In this document: one piece after another, positions 27,198 to 39,224 of the stretch
Layout: each line of letters begins with the position of its first letter
Position numbering within the stretch: the first letter of the stretch is position 1
Source of the DNA: Terriglobales bacterium
Lineage (GTDB): Bacteria > Acidobacteriota > Terriglobia > Terriglobales > Acidobacteriaceae
Length of the DNA: 41,168 bases
NCBI GenBank assembly: GCA_015655195.1
Contig: JAATFM010000197.1
Span: forward strand, 1 to 41,168
Direction: 5' to 3'
The notes under the pieces: generated by a model
What the model was told of the DNA's origin: nothing
Seen by the model: only the letters and a program-made list of their open reading frames with translations
The model's database searches: none
Position numbers and translations under genes: made by a program

Positions 27198-27229
27198 CGT
27201 TTCTGTCCTTCGCAGAAATGTTGCAGCTA

Positions 27230-27399
27230 ACCTGTGGCAGGTCTCCTGGCTCACAGATGGCACTTAGTGCCGAACCGCTCTCCTTCCCCGGAACTATCGC
27301 CGAGTGGTACTGCGAGCGGCTCTTCTCTGCTTACAGTGGCGGGACCGCGCCGGCATCGCACCGGACTTCCCTTTTAAGCCCATGAAGGGCACCATAGGT
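27230..27399 (-). promoter_or_regulatory. cobalamin riboswitch 1, before btuFDC
   Basis: The minus strand shows, in order, GGTGCC, AAAAGGGAAG.CCGGTG, the GCCACTG core, and the B12 box GCCAGGAGACCTGCC. P1 pairs ACCTATGG (27399-27392) with CCACAGGT (27237-27230). Its 5' end touches the cobD stop codon. The btuF ATG follows 33 bases after P1, with its Shine-Dalgarno close by, which suits control of translation. No T-run terminator was seen. Confidence 0.93.
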
Positions 27400-28553
27400 C
27401 AATTCATTTGTACCATGCCGATTCCATGGCTGCTCTCCGTCGCAGTGTTATCCGGTCCCGTTCCGTGGCTTGAAAACGCGAGAACCTGCGCAAGAGCTTC
27501 GACGAGCCTCCTATTGTCGGAGTCGCTGCGGACCGCTGTGCGCAGATGCCAATCGAGCAGGCCCTCGTAGTTCGCACAGTTGCGCAGCACAATCCGATGG
27601 TCGAGAATCATTCGCTTCCAGAAGTCCTCGCAATCGGCTGTGTTCGGCAGACGAAGAAGAAGGAAGTTTGCTGCCGATGGGTAAACCGAAATGCCAAGCG
27701 CTTCAATGAACTCTTGCATGCGACCCCGGCGCTCGGCATTGAGCGCGATTGTGCGGCTGGCATACGGCTCATCCTCAACGGCTACACTGGCCGCAAGAGA
27801 AGCAAGCGTGGTAATGGGCCAAGGTGCAATCGCCTCCTGCAAGCGTTTGCTGAGTTCCGGGTTCGAGATAGCGCAGGCAACGCGCAATCCGGGCATACCG
27901 AAGAACTTTGTCAGGGAACGGAAGACGATCAGATTTGGGAAACGCTCTGTCTCGCGTGCCAGAGACGCCTCCGGGCAGTAGTCGATGAATGCTTCATCGA
28001 GGAGAACGAAAATGTTTCGCGCCGCGGCTTCGGCTGTGAGATCGAGAAGAACATCGCGACTGGCGAGAACGCCGGATGGGTTTTGCGGGTTGGCAAGGAG
28101 GATGGCGTCGGGAAAGCCTGTCAACATTGCCTGCACGTCGTAACGAAAGCCTGACTCGAAGTCAAGCGCGTGAGGGATGGTCTCGATCTGTGCGCGAGCC
28201 AGCGTCCTGCGATACTCGATGAACGCCGGCACCGGCAGAAGGCAGCTTCGGATCGGCAGCACGCGAAGTCCGGCTTCAAGCAGCGGAACAAAGCCGTTTG
28301 CCACTGCAATATTTTCAGGACTAACGCTGTTATAACGGGCCAGGGATTGCTTAAGCTCTGTCTCGTCGATGTCGGGATAGCTGGTAAGAGTTACAGGATT
28401 GTCGACGGACGCGTGCAGGCGGGAGACAACGGCAGCAGGCGGGCCTTCGGGATTGATGTTGGCGCTGAAGTCGAGAAGCTCCGCGACAGCAATGCCGAAG
28501 CGGTCCGCGATCTGCCGGAGTTGGCCGCCATGGAGCGGCAGGGATTCGCTCAT
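27399..28553 (-). CDS. cobD: threonine-phosphate decarboxylase, PLP-dependent
   Basis: A 384-residue fold-type I PLP enzyme that makes (R)-1-amino-2-propanol phosphate for the lower-ligand arm. The N-terminal HGGQLRQIADRFG and DFSANINPEGPP are typical of CobD/CobC. LANPQNPSGVLAS, LLDEAFIDYCPE and the PLP lysine in RSLTKFFGMPGLR follow. The C-terminal TAVRSDSDNRRLVEAL matches too. The start overlaps the cbiB stop by four bases. It is the last gene of the long operon; the stop runs into riboswitch 1. Confidence 0.9.
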   Translation of the reverse strand: MSESLPLHGGQLRQIADRFGIAVAELLDFSANINPEGPPAAVVSRLHASVDNPVTLTSYPDIDETELKQSLARYNSVSPENIAVANGFVPLLEAGLRVLPIRSCLLPVPAFIEYRRTLARAQIETIPHALDFESGFRYDVQAMLTGFPDAILLANPQNPSGVLASRDVLLDLTAEAAARNIFVLLDEAFIDYCPEASLARETERFPNLIVFRSLTKFFGMPGLRVACAISNPELSKRLQEAIAPWPITTLASLAASVAVEDEPYASRTIALNAERRGRMQEFIEALGISVYPSAANFLLLRLPNTADCEDFWKRMILDHRIVLRNCANYEGLLDWHLRTAVRSDSDNRRLVEALAQVLAFSSHGTGPDNTATESSHGIGMVQMN

Positions 28554-29521
28554 CGGGCTTTTCTCCCTTGAAGGAATGCGCGTAGAAGCATACAGGCTCC
28601 GAGGCCAAGCAGTGCCACTGCAGATATGAGGCGAATCGCTTGGCGCGCTTGATCGGGCGTTGGCGCTGGGAACTCTTCGCCAATCGGCTCGGCCGCGATG
28701 AGCTTGCCGTCATAGAAATTTCCCCCGCCTAAACGGGCCTGCAAAGCGCCCGCCATGGCGCTCTCCGGCTGGCCGGCATTGGGGCTCTTGTGCTTGTCTC
28801 CATCGCGCAGCCAGAGATTCCAGGCACTGCGCGCGTCGTCCTCTCCGCACACACTTGAGGCCGACACGATAGCCAGTGCGGTCAGCCGGGCGGGCAGATA
28901 GTTGGCTGCATCATCCAGCCGCGCGGCGGCCTTGCCGAAGTAAAAGTAGCGCGCATCGGCGTGGCCAATCATGGAATCGAGCGTGTTTACGGCCTTATAG
29001 GCCATGGCAAGCGGAACGCCGCCAAGGCTCATGTAGAAAAGCGGCGCGACGATCCCGTCAGATGCGCTTTCCGCCACGGTTTCGATCACGGCACGGCTGA
29101 TTTCGGGAACGTTGAGTTGCTGCGTGTCGCGTCCAACAATGCGGGCAAGCCGTTGCCGCGCCAGCACGACACCTCCACTATCAAGCGCTGCCAGGACTGC
29201 CGACGCCTCTTCTTGAAGACTGCGGGCGGCAAGGCAGGTCCAGCCCAGAACGATTTCGGTCAGCCATCCCAGCATGCGCGAGCGGCGATAGGCTTGGTCG
29301 ATAATCAGCCGCGTTAGAGAATAGCTCGCAGCCACCAGCGCCACAGTGAGAGCGGCTCCGGCAAACAATTTGCTTGTCTCGCTTTGATCTAGCCTCCGCA
29401 GAACCGTCTCGCCACGAGTGATGGCCAGTCCCATAAGGCGGACAGGATGCGGGAACCACTCAGGATCGCCTGCGATCCGGTCTACCAGGTAGACTGCCGG
29501 AAGCAGTACGCAGCGGTTCAT
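28550..29521 (-). CDS. cbiB: adenosylcobinamide-phosphate synthase
   Basis: A 323-residue inner-membrane protein joining aminopropanol (phosphate) to adenosylcobyric acid. LVDRIAGDPEWFPHPVRLMG near the N-terminus, SRAVIETVAESASDGIVAPLFY in the centre, and the MAYKAVNTLDSMIGH and SPNAGQPESAMAGAL motifs are those of CbiB/CobD. Both ends overlap neighbours by four bases (cbiP and cobD), so its translation is coupled to theirs. Confidence 0.93.
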   Translation of the reverse strand: MNRCVLLPAVYLVDRIAGDPEWFPHPVRLMGLAITRGETVLRRLDQSETSKLFAGAALTVALVAASYSLTRLIIDQAYRRSRMLGWLTEIVLGWTCLAARSLQEEASAVLAALDSGGVVLARQRLARIVGRDTQQLNVPEISRAVIETVAESASDGIVAPLFYMSLGGVPLAMAYKAVNTLDSMIGHADARYFYFGKAAARLDDAANYLPARLTALAIVSASSVCGEDDARSAWNLWLRDGDKHKSPNAGQPESAMAGALQARLGGGNFYDGKLIAAEPIGEEFPAPTPDQARQAIRLISAVALLGLGACMLLRAFLQGRKAR

Positions 29522-31089
29522 CGCGCCTCCACCTTGCTCCGGTAGGAAAGTCCAGCCCAGCCGAAGATTTGCGGCATATCGAGAGACGCGCTGACCGTCG
29601 CCGCGAGCCGGTCAAAAGACTCTTCGCGCTTTGCCCTCCAGTTGTTCAACGCAGCAGCAGGCGTCAAGCGGTGGAACTCGCGAGCCGCGGCAATCAAGGC
29701 GTAACGAAAGCCGTCTTCGTCAAACAGGCCATGAAGGTAGGTGCCGAAGATGCGCGTGTCCGGCGTGATGCAACCATCGGCGGCGGGCTCTGCTCCCTTC
29801 CCTGCCTCGCGAACCAACCATGCGAATGGTTGTGCTTCCCCAAGATAGGTTGTCTCTCCTATGTGGATCTCGTATCCGGTCAGAGCTACATCTCCGACGG
29901 GCTGGCCAAAGAGCGATTCTGTGACGAGCCGTCCCGCTCCTGCGCTCGTGACCTTCGAGGGCCGCATCGTCGTCTCAATCTGCAACAGGCCCAGACCTGT
30001 CGCGCAGCCCATCGCTTCTATTCCATCGGGATCGAAAATTCTCTGTCCCAGCATCTGCATCCCTCCGCAGATACCAATGACAAGGCCGGAGCCTGCGTAT
30101 CGAATGACCGCATCGGCCAGGCCCTCCCTACGCATCCAGTGCAAATCATCTACGGTCTGCTTGCTGCCGGGCAGGATCACAACATCAGCCATGCGAAGTT
30201 GCTCCGGATTGCGGCAAAAGCGAAGCGCAATCGATGGCTCCGAACGCAGCGCATCAAAATCGGTGAAGTTCGAGAACGACGGCAGCGTAATGACGGCGAT
30301 ACGCAAGCGCCTGTCCACAGCGGATGAGGACCACTCTCCATTGTCTGCACTGCGGAGGTCCGGCAGACCGACGCTGTCCTCTTCTTCAAGCGCAAGGCCG
30401 TCGATAAACGGCACAACGCCAAGACACGGCTTTTGCAGCCGGTCTTCCATCATGCGAATGCCTGGCGTGAGCAGCATCTGGTCGCCGCGAAACTTGTTAA
30501 TGACAAAGCCACGGATGCGAGCCCGCTCCTCCGGCTCCAGCAATTCCACCGTTCCCAGCAGCGATGCGAAGACGCCGCCGCGGTCAATATCGCCCACCAG
30601 TATGCACGCTGCGTTGGCCAACTCCGCCATGCGCATGTTCACGATGTCGTGCCGCTTGAGGTTGATTTCGGCCGGCGATCCGGCGCCTTCGAGAACGATC
30701 ACTTCATATTGCGCGGCAAGCGCCTTGTAGCTCTCGCGGACGATTGGCATCAACTCTTCGACGCGGCGGTGGTGATAGTCCGAAGCCGAGAGCGTGCTCC
30801 ATATTTTGCCGCGCACTACAATCTGCGAGGCCATTCCGCCCGCAGGCTTCAGTAGGATGGGATTCATGTTGACCGATGGCGCGACGCCGGCGGCCTCCGC
30901 TTGCAGTGCCTGGGCGCGGCCTATTTCAAGACCCTCGACTGTCGCCGCAGAGTTGAGGGACATATTCTGCGCCTTGAACGGAGCGACGGAATGTCCCTGC
31001 CGCGCAAAGATTCTGCAGAGTGCGGTGGTCAGCAGCGATTTCCCCACGTGGGAACTGGTGCCGAGAATCATCACTGCGCGCGCCGTCAC
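29518..31089 (-). CDS. cbiP: cobyric acid synthase
   Basis: A 523-residue glutamine-dependent amidotransferase that amidates adenosylcobyrinic acid a,c-diamide at four sites. The N-terminal synthetase half shows ILGTSSHVGKSLLTTALCR, APFKAQNMSLNS and VLEGAGSPAEINL. The glutaminase half has the nucleophile Cys in GICGGMQMLG and ends with GTYLHGLFD. The start is a GTG overlapping the bluB stop (GTGA). CbiA, which would make its substrate, is not in the window. Confidence 0.94.
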   Translation of the reverse strand: MTARAVMILGTSSHVGKSLLTTALCRIFARQGHSVAPFKAQNMSLNSAATVEGLEIGRAQALQAEAAGVAPSVNMNPILLKPAGGMASQIVVRGKIWSTLSASDYHHRRVEELMPIVRESYKALAAQYEVIVLEGAGSPAEINLKRHDIVNMRMAELANAACILVGDIDRGGVFASLLGTVELLEPEERARIRGFVINKFRGDQMLLTPGIRMMEDRLQKPCLGVVPFIDGLALEEEDSVGLPDLRSADNGEWSSSAVDRRLRIAVITLPSFSNFTDFDALRSEPSIALRFCRNPEQLRMADVVILPGSKQTVDDLHWMRREGLADAVIRYAGSGLVIGICGGMQMLGQRIFDPDGIEAMGCATGLGLLQIETTMRPSKVTSAGAGRLVTESLFGQPVGDVALTGYEIHIGETTYLGEAQPFAWLVREAGKGAEPAADGCITPDTRIFGTYLHGLFDEDGFRYALIAAAREFHRLTPAAALNNWRAKREESFDRLAATVSASLDMPQIFGWAGLSYRSKVEAR

Positions 31090-31754
31090 AACTCACCTGC
31101 CCCGCAATAGCAGTCGTATGAAATCGTGGTTTCGAGGGACATGCGCCTCTCCCAGCCACAACGTTCGAGATCGGGTTCCGCGGCAAAGCCATCGACGTAG
31201 CCGAGACAGAGATAAGCCACGAACGTTAGATGAGCGGGAATGTTCAGCACCTTCCGGAGCTTTTCAGGATCGAGGATACTGACCCAGCCCACTCCGATTC
31301 CTTCGCTGCGGGCCGCGAGCCAGAGGTTCTGGATCGCGCAGACCGTTGAGTAAAGCGCCGTCTCGGGCATCGTTTGGCGTCCGACTCCATGCCCGCGTTC
31401 ACTGCCGGAGTCACAGAGAACGCAGAGATTCTGCGGAGCTTCAAGAATGCCTTCGAGCTTGAGCGCAGCATACCGCTCGCGCTGCTCTCCCATGTAACGG
31501 TCCGCTGCCTGCTGATTGGCTTCCTCAAAGATGCCATGGACCGCTCTTCGGACAACGGAATCGCGGATCACGATGAAGCGCCAAGGCTGCATCAATCCCA
31601 CTGAAGGAGCACTGTGCGCAGCCGCGAGCAGGCGATGGAGCAAATCTTCCGGTAGCGGCTTGTCGAGGAAACCTCTCCGCACGTCACGCCGCTCGGCAAT
31701 GGCACGATAGACCGCGTCGCGCTCCGTCTCGCTGAAAGCTAGGGCCTGACTCAT
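31086..31754 (-). CDS. bluB: 5,6-dimethylbenzimidazole synthase
   Basis: A 222-residue nitroreductase-fold enzyme that splits FMNH2 with oxygen to make the DMB lower ligand. RRDVRRGFLDKPLPEDLLHRLL, APSVGLMQPWRFIVI and GHGVGRQTMPETALYS are BluB-specific. The start is the ATG at 31754, which removes an N-terminal extension reaching into the preceding gene. It lies 7 bases after the adenosyltransferase stop. Its presence implies oxygen-dependent DMB synthesis. Confidence 0.92.
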   Translation of the reverse strand: MSQALAFSETERDAVYRAIAERRDVRRGFLDKPLPEDLLHRLLAAAHSAPSVGLMQPWRFIVIRDSVVRRAVHGIFEEANQQAADRYMGEQRERYAALKLEGILEAPQNLCVLCDSGSERGHGVGRQTMPETALYSTVCAIQNLWLAARSEGIGVGWVSILDPEKLRKVLNIPAHLTFVAYLCLGYVDGFAAEPDLERCGWERRMSLETTISYDCYCGAGEL

Positions 31755-31761
31755 GCTATTG

Positions 31762-32340
31762 TCACCATGCTCTCGAAAACTTTGGGCCGGCGTTGTCGTC
31801 TTCGCGAAGACGGCTGTTGACACCGGCATTGTGTTCGATGAGCCGCCCGAAAAGCCAGATCAGATCGGAGAGGCGGTTGAGATAGGCGAGTACTTCGGGC
31901 TGGACTACGCCGCCGTTCTCGACAAAACGTACGGCAGCACGTTCGGCTCGGCGGCAAACTGCGCGCGCCATCTCGTAGGCCGCCGACTCCGGATGTCCGC
32001 CGGGCAGAGACCAGTCTGCGAGAATGCCCTCGGTCGCCTCGATTTGATGGACAAGATCGGTCAGCTTGTCCACGTCTTCCGCGGTGATGGCGGGCGGCTT
32101 CTTCTTACTTTCGGGCGGCGTGGCCAACGCAGAGCCTACGCGGAACAGCGTTCGCTGAATCTCCTCTGTCCACGATGCGATCTCCTTGTTGTGGCAGATG
32201 CTGCGGGCAAACCCGAGATGCGTGTTCAGCTCATCAACCGAGCCGTAGGACTCGACGCGAAGGTCGGCTTTCGAGACGCGGATGCCGCCGGCTAGGCCCG
32301 TCTGCCCACCGTCGCCGCGTTTGGTTGCAATGCTACTCAT
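31762..32340 (-). CDS. pduO: PduO-type ATP:cob(I)alamin adenosyltransferase
   Basis: A 192-residue enzyme adding the 5'-deoxyadenosyl group to cob(I)alamin or cob(I)inamide. TKRGDGGQTGLAGG at the N-terminus is the ATP-binding stretch. VESYGSVDELNTHLG and the C-terminal RRAERAAVRF ... YLNRLSDLIWLFGR match the PduO class, not the CobA class. The start overlaps the preceding unknown gene by four bases. In this operon it serves assembly and salvage. Confidence 0.93.
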   Translation of the reverse strand: MSSIATKRGDGGQTGLAGGIRVSKADLRVESYGSVDELNTHLGFARSICHNKEIASWTEEIQRTLFRVGSALATPPESKKKPPAITAEDVDKLTDLVHQIEATEGILADWSLPGGHPESAAYEMARAVCRRAERAAVRFVENGGVVQPEVLAYLNRLSDLIWLFGRLIEHNAGVNSRLREDDNAGPKFSRAW

Positions 32341-33143
32341 TGGTCTTCTCCTTTAAGAGCATAGGTTTCTTCCATTGTGATGCGAAGCGTCTTGACGAGA
32401 GGGGCGCGATCGTATTCAAGGACAAGCGCGTCATCGAGGAAATCCATGACGCGCGGCGGTGAGGGAGAGAAAAGAACCTCCTCAGCGAAAAACCACGGGC
32501 GCACAGCTCCAAGCTCATCGAGTGTTCTCGCATGCACAATCACCGCTGGGAGACGGAAGACTCCGGCAGTAAGAGATGCAAATGCTCGATGATACCCGTC
32601 GCGGAGAAACCAACGGCCTCGATACTGCGCTACCTCGAAGAAGGGGCTGCCTGAGTGAATCGCAATCGGGCTCGATTTGTCACCGGTGATTCGGAAGTGC
32701 AGGTTGGGGTTGCTTGACCGGAACAGGATAGAGGTGTCGCTCTGGACCATCTCGCAGGCGATTGGCTGTGCGCCACCGAAGCACAAATTTATTAGAGCAA
32801 GCCAGTCGTCAGCGGCGGGAACGGCATTGCCCAGCGTGTTCGGATTCAGAGTGAGCCTGCGCTGGAAAGCGAGAAGCAGGCGAAGATCGACAATGCCAAC
32901 CGACCACTCCAGGCCTTCCATCTCTGCGTGCAGATCGGGCCTCGCAGCCTGCTGAGCCAGCATGTCGCGCAACTCGGCATCGCCGGCTTCGAGGACTGCA
33001 TTGTCTGCCTGAAATGGCGCGCGGCTGCCGACAAGGCTGCGTGCCCGGTCCGCTTTTTTGCGATCGAAGGAATGCGGACGGTACTCGTTCTCGTCGAGAT
33101 CCCAGCCCGCCAGTTCTCGCACACGCACCTTTCTCAAGCTCAT
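32337..33143 (-). CDS. unknown protein with DGYHR motif in the cobalamin operon
   Basis: A 268-residue soluble protein with no family I can name. The start is the ATG at 33143-33141 with GGAG about 8 bases upstream. It overlaps the cobC stop by four bases, and its own stop overlaps the pduO start by four, so it is translated with cobalamin enzymes. Residues 170-203 read FEVAQYRGRWFLRDGYHRAF followed by ASLTAGVFRLPAVIV. This is the pattern of ParB/sulfiredoxin-like proteins: a strand, DG-x-HR, a helix, then (V)PAVIV. The N-terminal half has charged helices and a VDLRLLLAFQRRL segment (85-97). The C-terminus is acidic. A role as nucleotide-binding enzyme or regulator of corrinoid assembly is speculation. 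Confidence 0.8.
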   Translation of the reverse strand: MSLRKVRVRELAGWDLDENEYRPHSFDRKKADRARSLVGSRAPFQADNAVLEAGDAELRDMLAQQAARPDLHAEMEGLEWSVGIVDLRLLLAFQRRLTLNPNTLGNAVPAADDWLALINLCFGGAQPIACEMVQSDTSILFRSSNPNLHFRITGDKSSPIAIHSGSPFFEVAQYRGRWFLRDGYHRAFASLTAGVFRLPAVIVHARTLDELGAVRPWFFAEEVLFSPSPPRVMDFLDDALVLEYDRAPLVKTLRITMEETYALKGEDQ

Positions 33144-33703
33144 ACGCTGCTCTCCTTCTGCTTGTACTCGAAGAAGCAGCAGTACGATCTTGTCCGCTCC
33201 CATGCCGTTTTCTCATCGAGACCGCATAGCGTTTGCAACACGACACGCATCACACCGGCGTGCGTCACGATGGCAAGATGGTTCCTGTACGGCAGCGCGA
33301 GCAGATACTCCACATCTTTTATGACTCTGGACTGGAATTCTTCGAAGGGCTCGCCCCCAGGAGCGGGCAGATGCGGATAGGACTCGGACCACTTCTGCGC
33401 ATAGACGGCGTCACGCGACTCGATCTCATGCCAGCTTAGTCCTTCCCACTCTCCAAAGCTGATCTCCCTAAGCGCTGGAACGGAAATCGATGAGAGTTGA
33501 AATCTTTCCGCGATGGCGCCTGCCGTCGTGAGAGCGCGTGAGAGATCGCTGGTATAAATTGCATCGATGGGCTTGCCTTCGAGCGCTTCCAGAAGCGCCT
33601 CAATCTGGCGGCGGCCGCTCTCGTTGACAGGCGGGTCCGAATGTCCGCAGAATCTGCCGGCCATATCTGTCTCGGCATGTCGGATAAAGAGCAGAGTGTT
33701 CAT
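33140..33703 (-). CDS. cobC: alpha-ribazole phosphatase
   Basis: A 187-residue histidine-phosphatase. LLFIRHAETDMAGRFCGHSD at the N-terminus holds the catalytic His9; the usual RHGE reads RHAE here. IYTSDLSRALTTA, REISFGEWEGLSWHEI and AIVTHAGVMR with the second His complete it. It removes the phosphate from alpha-ribazole phosphate or adenosylcobalamin 5'-phosphate. The start is the ATG at 33703, overlapping the cobS stop by one base (TGATG); the frame itself extends far upstream inside cobS and is not coding there. Confidence 0.9.
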   Translation of the reverse strand: MNTLLFIRHAETDMAGRFCGHSDPPVNESGRRQIEALLEALEGKPIDAIYTSDLSRALTTAGAIAERFQLSSISVPALREISFGEWEGLSWHEIESRDAVYAQKWSESYPHLPAPGGEPFEEFQSRVIKDVEYLLALPYRNHLAIVTHAGVMRVVLQTLCGLDEKTAWERTRSYCCFFEYKQKESSV

Positions 33704-34479
33704 CACGCCCACACTCCGCAGAGATATACGGCAATCTCGGCCAGTTGGTTGGTAGCGCCGAAACAGTCGCCGGTAACGCCACCAATTCTCCGCTTGTAGT
33801 AAAGCGCGCTCAGCAGCGTTATAGCCGCCGCGGTAAACACAGAAATCAGGCCGCGAATTCTCAGCAAGGCGAAGATGACGGCGAGAGTGAAGAGGCTGCC
33901 TAGAATTAAAGTACCGCGCGTGGTGAGATAGGCAATGCGCGCTCCCTGTCCGTCGGTCACATCCTCGCTGCGAGTTCGCGCCGGGGGGAGATAGAAACTG
34001 AGCGGCAGCGTTGTCCAGCGGCATACGACATGTGCTGCAATCAGATAGGTTTCTACACGAAAGGCCGGGAGTGAAGCGATGAGCAGAACACGGGCCAGCA
34101 GGCTCAGCGTAAGAGCGAGAGCGCCGTAGCTGCCGATGCGGCTGTCGCGCATGATTGTCAGCACCTGCGTGCGCTCCCATCCACCACCAAAACCATCGGC
34201 TGCGTCCGCGAGTCCGTCTTCATGCAGGCTGCCGGTGATCAGGACGAGATAGACGACTACGAACAGTGCAACAATCGACACGGGGAGATGTGGTGCGAGC
34301 AGAAGATGCACGAGCGCCGCGCCGAGGCCAATCAACAGTCCTACAAGCGGAAAGAATTTCACTGCGCGGGAAAGCGTGTCTGCCTCATAGCTCCGCACAG
34401 GTACGGGAATGCGCGTGAGGAACTGAACCGCGGAGAGAAAATCGAGACCCACCCGTCGAAGATTGGCCGCGGCTATCAT
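33703..34479 (-). CDS. cobS: adenosylcobinamide-GDP ribazoletransferase
   Basis: A 258-residue polytopic membrane enzyme joining AdoCbi-GDP with alpha-ribazole (phosphate). AVQFLTRIPVP at the N-terminus, ITGSLHEDGLADAADGFGGG with its acidic residues, and MRDSRIGSYGALAL are the CobS signatures. GGVTGDCFGATNQLAEIAVY ends it. The start overlaps cobT by four bases. Confidence 0.95.
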   Translation of the reverse strand: MIAAANLRRVGLDFLSAVQFLTRIPVPVRSYEADTLSRAVKFFPLVGLLIGLGAALVHLLLAPHLPVSIVALFVVVYLVLITGSLHEDGLADAADGFGGGWERTQVLTIMRDSRIGSYGALALTLSLLARVLLIASLPAFRVETYLIAAHVVCRWTTLPLSFYLPPARTRSEDVTDGQGARIAYLTTRGTLILGSLFTLAVIFALLRIRGLISVFTAAAITLLSALYYKRRIGGVTGDCFGATNQLAEIAVYLCGVWA

Positions 34480-35552
34480 TGAGCGGCCTCGCTCACGCCT
34501 GCCGCTGCAAATGTTGCCATCCCGTTGTAAAGCGAGATGGCCGATTCGAGGATGGGCATTGCAAGAACTGCGCCTGTGCCTTCGCCGAGACGCATTCCTA
34601 GATCAAGCACGGGCGTAAGCCCGAGATGATCGAGCAAGAGCCGGTGTCCGGGTTCCTCCGACCGGTGGCCGGCGATGAGATAGCCGAGAACATTCGGCTC
34701 CATCGCTGCTGCCAGCGCAACCGCAGCCGTGGAGATGAATCCGTCAGCGACAACCACTATTCTGTGTCGCGCGGCAGCTAGCACCATGCCGGTCATAGCG
34801 GCTATTTCTAAGCCGCCAACACAGCGAAGAATCTCGATTGCGGAAGATGGAGCACCGCAGTGCTTCGCGACTATTGCTTCCACGATGCGAACCTTGCGGG
34901 CATGAGCCTCGGACTCAAGGCCGGTGCCGCGGCCCGTAGCGATTGCGGCGGAGGCTCCGGTGAGCGCGCAGGTGATGGCACTGGCGGAGGTCGTGTTTCC
35001 GATTCCCATCTCACCGATGGCAAGCAGGCTATAGCCGGCGGCTGCGGCTTCCTCTCCAAGCGTTGCTCCAACGGACATGGCCTGCGCGAGCTCTTCCTCG
35101 CTCATGGCTGCCTCTTGAAGCATGTTGCGCGAGCCGCGGCGAACCTTGTGGTGCAGCAGGCCGGGAGCCTGCTCAAGATCGGCATCGACGCCCACATCGA
35201 CAACATGAAGAGCTGCTCTGTGCAAACGTGCGAGAACATTGATCGCTGCGCCTTCGCTGAGAAAGTTCAGCACCATCTGGTGAGTCACAGCGCGTGGATA
35301 GGCGCTTACGCCCTCTTCTGTAATCCCGTGATCGGCTGCAAAGACATACACGGCTTTGCGGAAGGAATCGGCAACGCGCTCGCGGCGGATGGCAACGATC
35401 TGCGCGGCCAGATCTTCAAGACGCCCCAGACTGCCGATAGGCTTGGTCAGAGTGTCGAGGTGCACGCAAGCCTGCCTGCGCCAGCCCTCCTCGACTGGCG
35501 CGATGCCGCTAACAAGCTGGTCGAGTATTACTCGACTCATTTCAGTCGCCAT
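34476..35552 (-). CDS. cobT: nicotinate-nucleotide:DMB phosphoribosyltransferase
   Basis: A 358-residue enzyme activating DMB to alpha-ribazole phosphate. LDTLTKPIGSLGRLEDLAAQ at the N-terminus, FAADHGITEEGVSAYPRAVT, EMGIGNTTSASAITCALTG, and the C-terminal LDLGMRLGEGTGAVLAMPIL, including the catalytic Glu, are all present. I take the ATG at 35552 because GGAGG lies just upstream. An ATG at 35540 that overlaps the receptor stop as ATGA is an alternative. Length is normal. Confidence 0.95.
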   Translation of the reverse strand: MATEMSRVILDQLVSGIAPVEEGWRRQACVHLDTLTKPIGSLGRLEDLAAQIVAIRRERVADSFRKAVYVFAADHGITEEGVSAYPRAVTHQMVLNFLSEGAAINVLARLHRAALHVVDVGVDADLEQAPGLLHHKVRRGSRNMLQEAAMSEEELAQAMSVGATLGEEAAAAGYSLLAIGEMGIGNTTSASAITCALTGASAAIATGRGTGLESEAHARKVRIVEAIVAKHCGAPSSAIEILRCVGGLEIAAMTGMVLAAARHRIVVVADGFISTAAVALAAAMEPNVLGYLIAGHRSEEPGHRLLLDHLGLTPVLDLGMRLGEGTGAVLAMPILESAISLYNGMATFAAAGVSEAAQ

Positions 35553-38056: not shown

Positions 38057-38079
38057 AATTCCCCCTCGGGTTCAAGCTG

Positions 38080-38231
38080 CAGCTGGGCCGGTCTCCTGGC
38101 TTGCGCGTCTTCGAGTCCGTGCTGCCTTCCCGGAGCCCTGCTCCAGTGGCGTTGAAGTTCCTGCACGTCTCTCTGCGCTTACAGTTACGGGGTAGTGGCG
38201 GAATTGCACCGCGCTTCCCGACACCCTGCTG
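38080..38231 (-). promoter_or_regulatory. cobalamin riboswitch 2, before the receptor/cob operon
   Basis: The minus strand has CAGCAGGG, GGTGTCGGGAAGCGCGGTGC, GCCACTACCCCGTAACTGTA, and the B12 box GCCAGGAGACCGGCC. P1 pairs CAGC-A-GGG (38231-38224) with CCC-A-GCTG (38087-38080). The receptor ATG lies 24 bases beyond P1, so translational control is likely. The core is almost identical to riboswitch 3. Confidence 0.94.
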
Positions 38232-38304
38232 GTAAATGTTGTGGCCGTTTGTTTGTTCGGCGTTGTAGCAAATTACGGCGGTTTGACGGAAACCGAAATG
38301 TCAT

Positions 38305-38883
38305 TCATCTTCGCGCCTCCGTGTTGAGAGAACCTTTAAGAACAAGCGGCAGGCCGGCAACCATCAGGACGACACGATCGGCAACCGCTGCAACGCGCTG
38401 GTTAATCTCGCCGAGCAGATCCCGGTAACGACGCCCCATCTCAAAGGCTGGAACGACGCCGCTACCAACCTCATTCGAGACCAATACAACGGAACGTGGA
38501 CTCGACGCAAGCGCGGCACACAGCGCGTCAACTTTCGATGCCACGGCGCCTCTCGATGTCACGCCGTCCGCATTGTTTCCATAAACCTCGATCAGCTTGC
38601 CTGCGAAGAGGGTGAGGCAATCGATTAGAAGAAGATCGCAGTCGGCTGCCGATTCGAGGGCTCCGGCAAGGTCAAGCGGCTCCTCGACTGTGGCCCAGTG
38701 CTGCGGCCGCTCGGCCTGGTGCCGCTCGATCTTGCGCCGCATCTCCTCATCGTCGCGGTGCTCGGCAGTGGCAATAAACGTAACGCGCCCTGCGCGCGAG
38801 GCAATCTCCTGCGCGTATCGGCTCTTGCCGCTGCGAACCCCGCCCAGCACGAGCGTCACCTGTCTGGTTGAATCGGAATACAT
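38305..38883 (-). CDS. cobU: adenosylcobinamide kinase/guanylyltransferase
   Basis: A 192-residue bifunctional enzyme that phosphorylates and then guanylylates adenosylcobinamide. The P-loop is LGGVRSGKSRYAQ, with the guanylylated His region in KIERHQAERPQHWATVEEP. LLIDCLTLFAGKL, LVSNEVGSGVVP and YRDLLGEINQRVAAVADRVV complete the family. It has its own riboswitch upstream (39027-39180) and is separated from the receptor operon by riboswitch 2, so its transcription may be separate or may read through. Confidence 0.95.
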   Translation of the reverse strand: MYSDSTRQVTLVLGGVRSGKSRYAQEIASRAGRVTFIATAEHRDDEEMRRKIERHQAERPQHWATVEEPLDLAGALESAADCDLLLIDCLTLFAGKLIEVYGNNADGVTSRGAVASKVDALCAALASSPRSVVLVSNEVGSGVVPAFEMGRRYRDLLGEINQRVAAVADRVVLMVAGLPLVLKGSLNTEARR

Positions 38884-39026
38884 GCGCCGCTCCCGGCATC
38901 CGTTGCTACGAACGCACGAAAGACAAAGCGGGAAGTAATTTGCAGGCAGCCACCACGGCGACCCGAGATTGGATCGCTGTGGATACGCTCTTCAACTCTC
39001 CCATCGAAGTTGAATAAGCCCGATTC

Positions 39027-39180
39027 GCATCTGGCCGGTCTCCTGACTTACGCTTCCTCGAGATCGGGCAGCCTTCCCAGGGACGTTGCCCCCAGTGGCT
39101 TCCAACGGAGTGCCGATCTCTCAGCGTTCACAGTTACGGGGTAGTGGCGGAATCGCACCGCCTTCCCGAACACCAGATGC
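39027..39180 (-). promoter_or_regulatory. cobalamin riboswitch 3, before cobU
   Basis: On the minus strand P1 is a perfect 8-bp pair, GCATCTGG (39180-39173) with CCAGATGC (39034-39027). Inside are GGTGTTCGGGAAGGCGGTGC, GCCACTACCCCGTAACTGTG and the B12 box GTCAGGAGACCGGCC. The leader from P1 to the cobU ATG is about 143 bases and holds a 7-bp hairpin (38991-38997 with 39008-39014). No T-run was seen. The 340-base gap before cobU has no gene. Confidence 0.94.
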
Positions 39181-39224
39181 TTTGAAAGATACCGTCCGGC
39201 AGGTCCGGAGGTCAACGGGGTTCC

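Follow-up and report, generated by a model that had tools for sequence, protein, structure and literature searches.

Gene content of the cobalamin locus

The window, the whole 41,168-nucleotide stretch of Acidobacteriaceae DNA that was analysed, carries a cobalamin (vitamin B12) operon on its minus strand. With neighbours named from Pfam and NCBIfam matches, the gene order is cobT (34476..35552), cobS (33703..34479), cobC for alpha-ribazole phosphatase (33140..33703), a gene here called X (32337..33143), pduO for a PduO-type cobalamin adenosyltransferase (31762..32340), bluB for the DMB synthase (31086..31829, start provisional), cobQ for cobyric acid synthase (29518..31089), cbiB for adenosylcobinamide-phosphate synthase (28550..29521) and cobD for threonine-phosphate decarboxylase (27399..28553), followed by BtuFDC-type transporter genes. 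CobC scores 154.3 bits against TIGR03162, below the curated cut-off of 162.9, and CobD 271.2 bits against TIGR01140, below the curated 290.55, yet this is its best family. Upstream of cobT lie a TonB-dependent-receptor-like gene (named by eye) and then cobU for cobinamide kinase/guanylyltransferase (38305..38883, minus strand), identified by family match and search. Three cobalamin riboswitches occur inside 12 kb on the same strand: one 5' of this receptor-like gene (38069..38243), one 5' of cobU (39016..39192) and a third at 27219..27411. The late steps covered by window genes are adenosylation, amidation, linker attachment, lower ligand and loop assembly; among the late steps looked for in the window, no recognised L-threonine kinase was found.

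X encodes a DGYHR protein of 268 amino acids with a predicted ParB/sulfiredoxin (ParB/Srx) fold, called from its open frame and an AlphaFold core model. Its start codon is the ATG at 33143 and its stop ends at 32337; the minus strand is open here, and the plus-strand translation of 32337-33143 is interrupted by stops. The cobC stop and the X start share an ATGA, as do the X stop and the pduO start, which agrees with the four-base overlaps on both sides reported in the preliminary description. A -4 overlap with cobC is possible in 33 of the 36 loci having a cobC match (37 survey loci), a generous count because the in-frame start nearest to -4 was taken; with pduO it is possible in 25 of the 37. 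X is under purifying selection (six pairs give dN/dS 0.15-0.33, with dS above 1.5 and hence saturated in two), and searching the window genome with X at E <= 10 recovers X alone. X is a real gene that encodes a conserved B12-operon protein.

Distribution of X

X matches 39 of 399 genomes from the class, 27 strongly (E <= 2.6e-46) and 12 more weakly (5e-21 to 7e-4), G005 being among the weaker 12. All 27 strong matches fall in the window's family, the Acidobacteriaceae, and all 27 genomes carry CobS; no strong match was obtained in the 63 genomes from other families that also carry CobS. A search of 60 relatives, with the window genome as a separate row, gave four matches at E <= 0.001, including strong ones in G015 and G026 and a relic in G005. 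The named collection contains 38 X loci, 34 of them (L099-L132) within a cob operon, from Granulicella, Edaphobacter, Silvibacterium, Terriglobus, Paracidobacterium, unclassified Acidobacteria and one record labelled Rhodanobacteraceae; L133-L136 have no cob gene nearby. The preliminary description had held that homologues mostly outside cobalamin loci would speak against its view, and for close relatives the reverse distribution (34 of 38 in cob operons) was found.

Slot counts come from 37 survey loci (window included) and the 34 named loci, sets that overlap. Within 12 kb of X, pduO and cobQ are present in all 37 survey loci, cobC, cobS, cobT, cbiB, cobD and bluB in 36 each, and cobU in 29. 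One 3-kb contig (L054) accounts for the missing cobS, cobT, cbiB and cobD; cobC is missing at L062, though another search gave a short cobC match there. cobD is near X in 36 of 37 survey loci and 31 of 34 named loci, the four misses being contigs of 3-5.4 kb. Given this conserved slot, the earlier proposal of an undescribed component of the cobalamin operon holds within the Acidobacteriaceae. Two X operons, L041 (G187) and L110, have no bluB match between pduO and cobQ.

G005 (L096:18124-18805) contains a decayed X tail directly before pduO, 37 residues long, with 46-47% identity and stops inside; its pduO matches in two overlapping pieces, and the genome has no CobS or CbiB match. This tail is likely the remnant of a lost operon.

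Distant relatives of X (about 20-29% identity) sit outside cobalamin loci, and X is the B12-linked branch of a broader family. One such relative (L043:8946-9860) lies amid flagellar-looking genes, with flagellin and MotB-like neighbours assigned by eye. Another (L133:5677-9442) is flanked by a TPR/glycosyltransferase-41 gene on one side and a SocA/Panacea-like gene on the other, and L134 looks alike by eye. Relatives of NNGSHR or related type are found beside HlyD, M50-peptidase or peptidase-domain ABC exporter genes (L045:8254-9309, L049:1497-2540, L172:3659-4636), with the same exporter-type neighbours seen by eye only at L052:8330-9325 and L044:4582-5739; the exporter-adjacent relatives are perhaps part of a peptide export system.

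Association with the linker branch

The family sample comprised 48 CobS-bearing Acidobacteriaceae genomes from two combined CobS searches, some of them incomplete. X is present in 36, all of which carry CbiB; of the 12 without X, eight lack CbiB and four have it (Fisher p 1.3e-6, kinship ignored). A recount without genomes <90% complete or >5% contaminated leaves 35 genomes with X, all with CbiB, and five without X, of which G351 has CbiB and G424, G451, G499 and G541 do not. The genomes with neither gene are these last four (96-100% complete) and G477, G493, G496 and G579 (68-85%); the CobS match of G541 is weak and contains a stop, and the genome is still counted among the eight.

Four genomes have CbiB and no X. 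The cob region of G351 is arranged differently, and its neighbours look anaerobic (by eye). G351 was counted as lacking X because C12, its X-like gene, is a distant one (25%) amid flagellar-looking genes; its strong X score is circular because the G351 sequence is a member of the 31-sequence X alignment, A2. G475 has a divergent cob operon, is 84% complete and may be mis-binned. G519 and G523 (77% complete) contain cobC, pduO, cobQ and cbiB, with X and bluB absent; the G519 contig ends at cbiB, and that of G523 continues about 650 bases beyond with no cobD match. All statements on CobD are local to the operons.

Other parts of the pathway are retained in genomes without X: G424 keeps cobU, cobT, cobS, cobC, pduO and bluB (pduO and bluB in two pieces each), and G477 keeps cobU, cobT, cobS, cobC and pduO. 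The presence of CobC, PduO, CobS, CobT or CobU thus does not always call for X. X goes with the linker branch cobQ-cbiB-cobD instead. This bears on the role first suggested for X, a nucleotide-dependent chaperone or step at the CobC/adenosyltransferase (PduO) stage, a reading prompted by the overlap of X with both genes. cobC and pduO occur without X in G424, G477, G519 and G523, and G005 keeps pduO beside its X relic, so that this role now seems very unlikely. X as a replacement for CobU was ruled out: CobU is present in 29 of 34 genomes searched and in the window (38305-38883), and in 27 of the 29 X genomes of that list, the misses being G015 and G026.

Sequence families and predicted fold

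The sole Pfam family to surface for the window X is PF23719 (VapB-like), at E 0.013 and 16.1 bits against a cut-off of 27, over residues 163-190; it matches 22 of the 31 A2 members (best E 2.3e-5). X has no NCBIfam family at E <= 10, no PHROG match at E <= 1, no GHMP kinase domain (PF00288) match and no PDB sequence match at E <= 10; PDB searches with one sequence and two profiles gave no ParB/Srx match, SerK and SbnI included. ParB_N (PF02195) is absent from the window X and from the 31 A2 members at E <= 1. Searches of plasmid records gave two weak matches (E 3e-3), and no description of X was found in the titles and abstract beginnings of the open-licence literature. In these searches, the broader family to which X belongs matched no named family.

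Structure comparison of the predicted model agrees with the ParB/sulfiredoxin fold suggested in the preliminary description. The AlphaFold pLDDT is 91.2 for whole X and 88.7 for core residues 72-258 (35 sequences). With VIA-align 2, 31 of the 32 top PDB entries for the core are ParB/sulfiredoxin-fold proteins by title or sequence, and the remaining one is the uncharacterised Atu1540 (2hwj), whose kinship with such proteins we assume. Z falls from 8.2 to 4.2 over ranks 1-32, and the next entry has Z 3.3. The best match is sulfiredoxin (Z 8.2, 2.2 A, 85 of 89 residues), followed by ParB-type proteins (6.6), the P. furiosus SerK homologue 1vk1 (5.3), SerK 5x0b (5.0) and SbnI (4.5); for the whole model, sulfiredoxin scores 6.0 and SerK 3.9. 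According to the tool's own caution, Z under 8 can reflect a common arrangement; the fold assignment is persuasive because the match list is uniform. Two Foldseek searches gave best E values of 0.08 and 0.0046, none under 0.001, and the first 41 rows of one and the best 50 of 276 of the other are ParB, Noc, KorB, PadC, sulfiredoxin, SerK, SbnI or Atu1540. X is thus predicted, from its model, to be a ParB/sulfiredoxin-fold protein, and it may bind a nucleotide.

Although sulfiredoxin is the top structural match, it carries a cysteine in the phosphate-motif loop, and X has none there. X resembles the ParB/Noc CTPases in predicted fold, in a GxxR motif and, by hand alignment, in a Gln in the C motif. 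It differs from ParB in that the ParB of the window genome has AGERR where X has DGYHR, and X lacks a PF02195 match; comparison of the X profile with that ParB gave a weak match (P 0.02 to 0.09) whose score, 21.5, is lower than that of the best control. In the model, as judged by eye, only short helices lie past residue 204, then two strands, with no helix-turn-helix-like part after the fold. The predicted fold by itself would suit a ParB-like DNA clamp or a transcription regulator of the operon, a role made highly improbable by the missing PF02195 match and helix-turn-helix-like part, by the riboswitches already present for regulation and by the fact that X follows CbiB rather than cob genes as such.

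Conserved motifs

DGYHR (residues 182-186; 32586..32600, minus strand) fits, as G183-Y-H-R186, the GxxR phosphate ('P') motif named in the available part of PMC12704722. The residue stretch singled out earlier was confirmed: residues 176-188 read GRWFLRDGYHRAF and residues 198-203 LPAVIV. DGYHR is found in 30 of 31 A2 sequences, L042 having SGYHR. Gln94, Leu180, Gly183, His185, Arg186 and Asp234 (32442..32444, minus strand) are invariant in 35 aligned relatives, inside and outside B12 loci. Gln94 lies in IVDLRLLLAFQRR (residues 84-96; 32856..32894, minus strand), a probable C motif by hand alignment to SerK. Because Gln94, GxHR and Asp234 are kept outside B12 loci, they give no pointer to threonine.

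When X is aligned with SerK, its DGYHR region pairs with the DGHHR region of SerK (SerK residues 61-94) and scores 27.9; the highest control score is 23.7 among 150 proteins and 17.4 among 40 shuffles. hhalign covered the DGYHR part only; a spacing-based hand alignment of VDLRLLLAFQRR with IELDKMKPHEQLV places Gln94 on SerK Glu30, the residue mutated in structures 5x0e and 5x0j and presumably the catalytic base. With Gln94 in its place, a SerK-like mechanism would therefore need another base. X further differs from SerK in two respects: about residues 100-160 form an insertion that separates the C motif from the strand preceding DGYHR, and there is an additional N-terminal region.

The missing L-threonine kinase

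The linker route requires a threonine kinase (PduX or BluE), CobD and CbiB, according to the available parts of PMC7242693 and PMC6249242; in the latter, PduX, BluE and CobD were tested in an E. coli without gldA. The window carries CobD and CbiB. A search of 80 genomes with one PduX-like GHMP kinase from the G290 cob operon, a query that divergent kinases may escape, gave nine matches at E <= 1e-6, none of them in 28 X genomes or 30 family genomes. In six of the nine genomes (G086, G111, G209, G290, G298 and G361), the matching gene shares a contig with cobS or cbiB and is no more than 5 kb away from it. PduX-like GHMP kinase genes lie inside cob operons of another acidobacterial family at L147:13167-14024 and L142:13169-14023. 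Of 50 CbiB-bearing genomes of other families, 41 show no strong X match and no PduX match either (E <= 1e-6); a missing kinase is therefore common, and the gap argument is suggestive only and proves little. A hunt for BluE via bluB in Rhodobacterales plasmids (five regions) turned up one neighbouring 'propanediol utilization protein' that resembles the PduX-like query (31%, E 4e-8) and has no Pfam match at E <= 0.01.

Proposed function

On the computed gene, slot, predicted fold, co-occurrence with CbiB and nearness to cobD, we infer that X is a ParB/Srx-fold nucleotide-binding enzyme of the linker branch, most likely an L-threonine kinase, with a rough probability of 0.4; nucleotide binding, catalysis and threonine as the substrate are the conjectural parts of this reading. 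X would have been recruited into the Acidobacteriaceae cobalamin operon as a nucleotide-binding enzyme and would serve the branch responsible for making the aminopropanol-phosphate linker and attaching it. It would phosphorylate free L-threonine to L-threonine-O-3-phosphate, the CobD substrate, and CbiB would join the CobD product to adenosylcobyric acid. In proposed reaction and pathway place, X is like the L-threonine kinases PduX and BluE; the PduX-like proteins found here are GHMP kinases, whereas X lacks a GHMP domain and has a predicted ParB/Srx fold. The fold has a precedent for such chemistry: SerK (TK0378), an ADP-dependent enzyme of ParB/Srx fold, is described in the available part of PMC5120207 as a free serine kinase that does not accept threonine, and SbnI in that of PMC12704722 as a serine kinase. 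X shares with SerK and SbnI the predicted fold and, as proposed, action on a free amino acid, and SerK also has DGxHR.

The serine activity of SerK and SbnI (stated in those same parts of PMC5120207 and PMC12704722) would equally suit some other nucleotide-dependent reaction in the supply of the linker or the salvage of corrinoids, such as phosphorylating aminopropanol, ethanolamine or serine, or processing a salvaged corrinoid, and the same co-occurrence with CbiB and CobD fits it. The family that the operon CobD matches best is threonine-phosphate decarboxylase, which implies a need for threonine phosphate, and such a step is accordingly judged improbable.

X might instead be a non-catalytic, nucleotide-dependent switch or scaffold that aids CobQ, CbiB and CobD or tunes them to nucleotide supply. 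The best studied ParB-fold members act as a CTP switch, as stated in the available part of PMC12704722, Gln94 is ParB-like rather than SerK-like in the hand alignment, and the same CbiB co-occurrence data apply. This role would leave the threonine kinase step unexplained, and in the model the fold is not followed by a series of helices resembling a helix-turn-helix; we regard this role as somewhat unlikely.

Returning to the L-threonine kinase, we tentatively suggest that the Acidobacteriaceae may make the B12 linker with a ParB/Srx-fold kinase unrelated to GHMP-type PduX, using the phosphate-transferring form of this fold, which is known to act on free serine. Should X not be this kinase, it is still a concrete target, being an undescribed protein that is locked into the operon and associated with the linker branch. 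If the proposal is true, part of the gap would be closed by a novel type of L-threonine kinase, the ParB/Srx fold would gain an enzyme, and soil Acidobacteria would have a defined path leading from cobyric acid to cobalamin.
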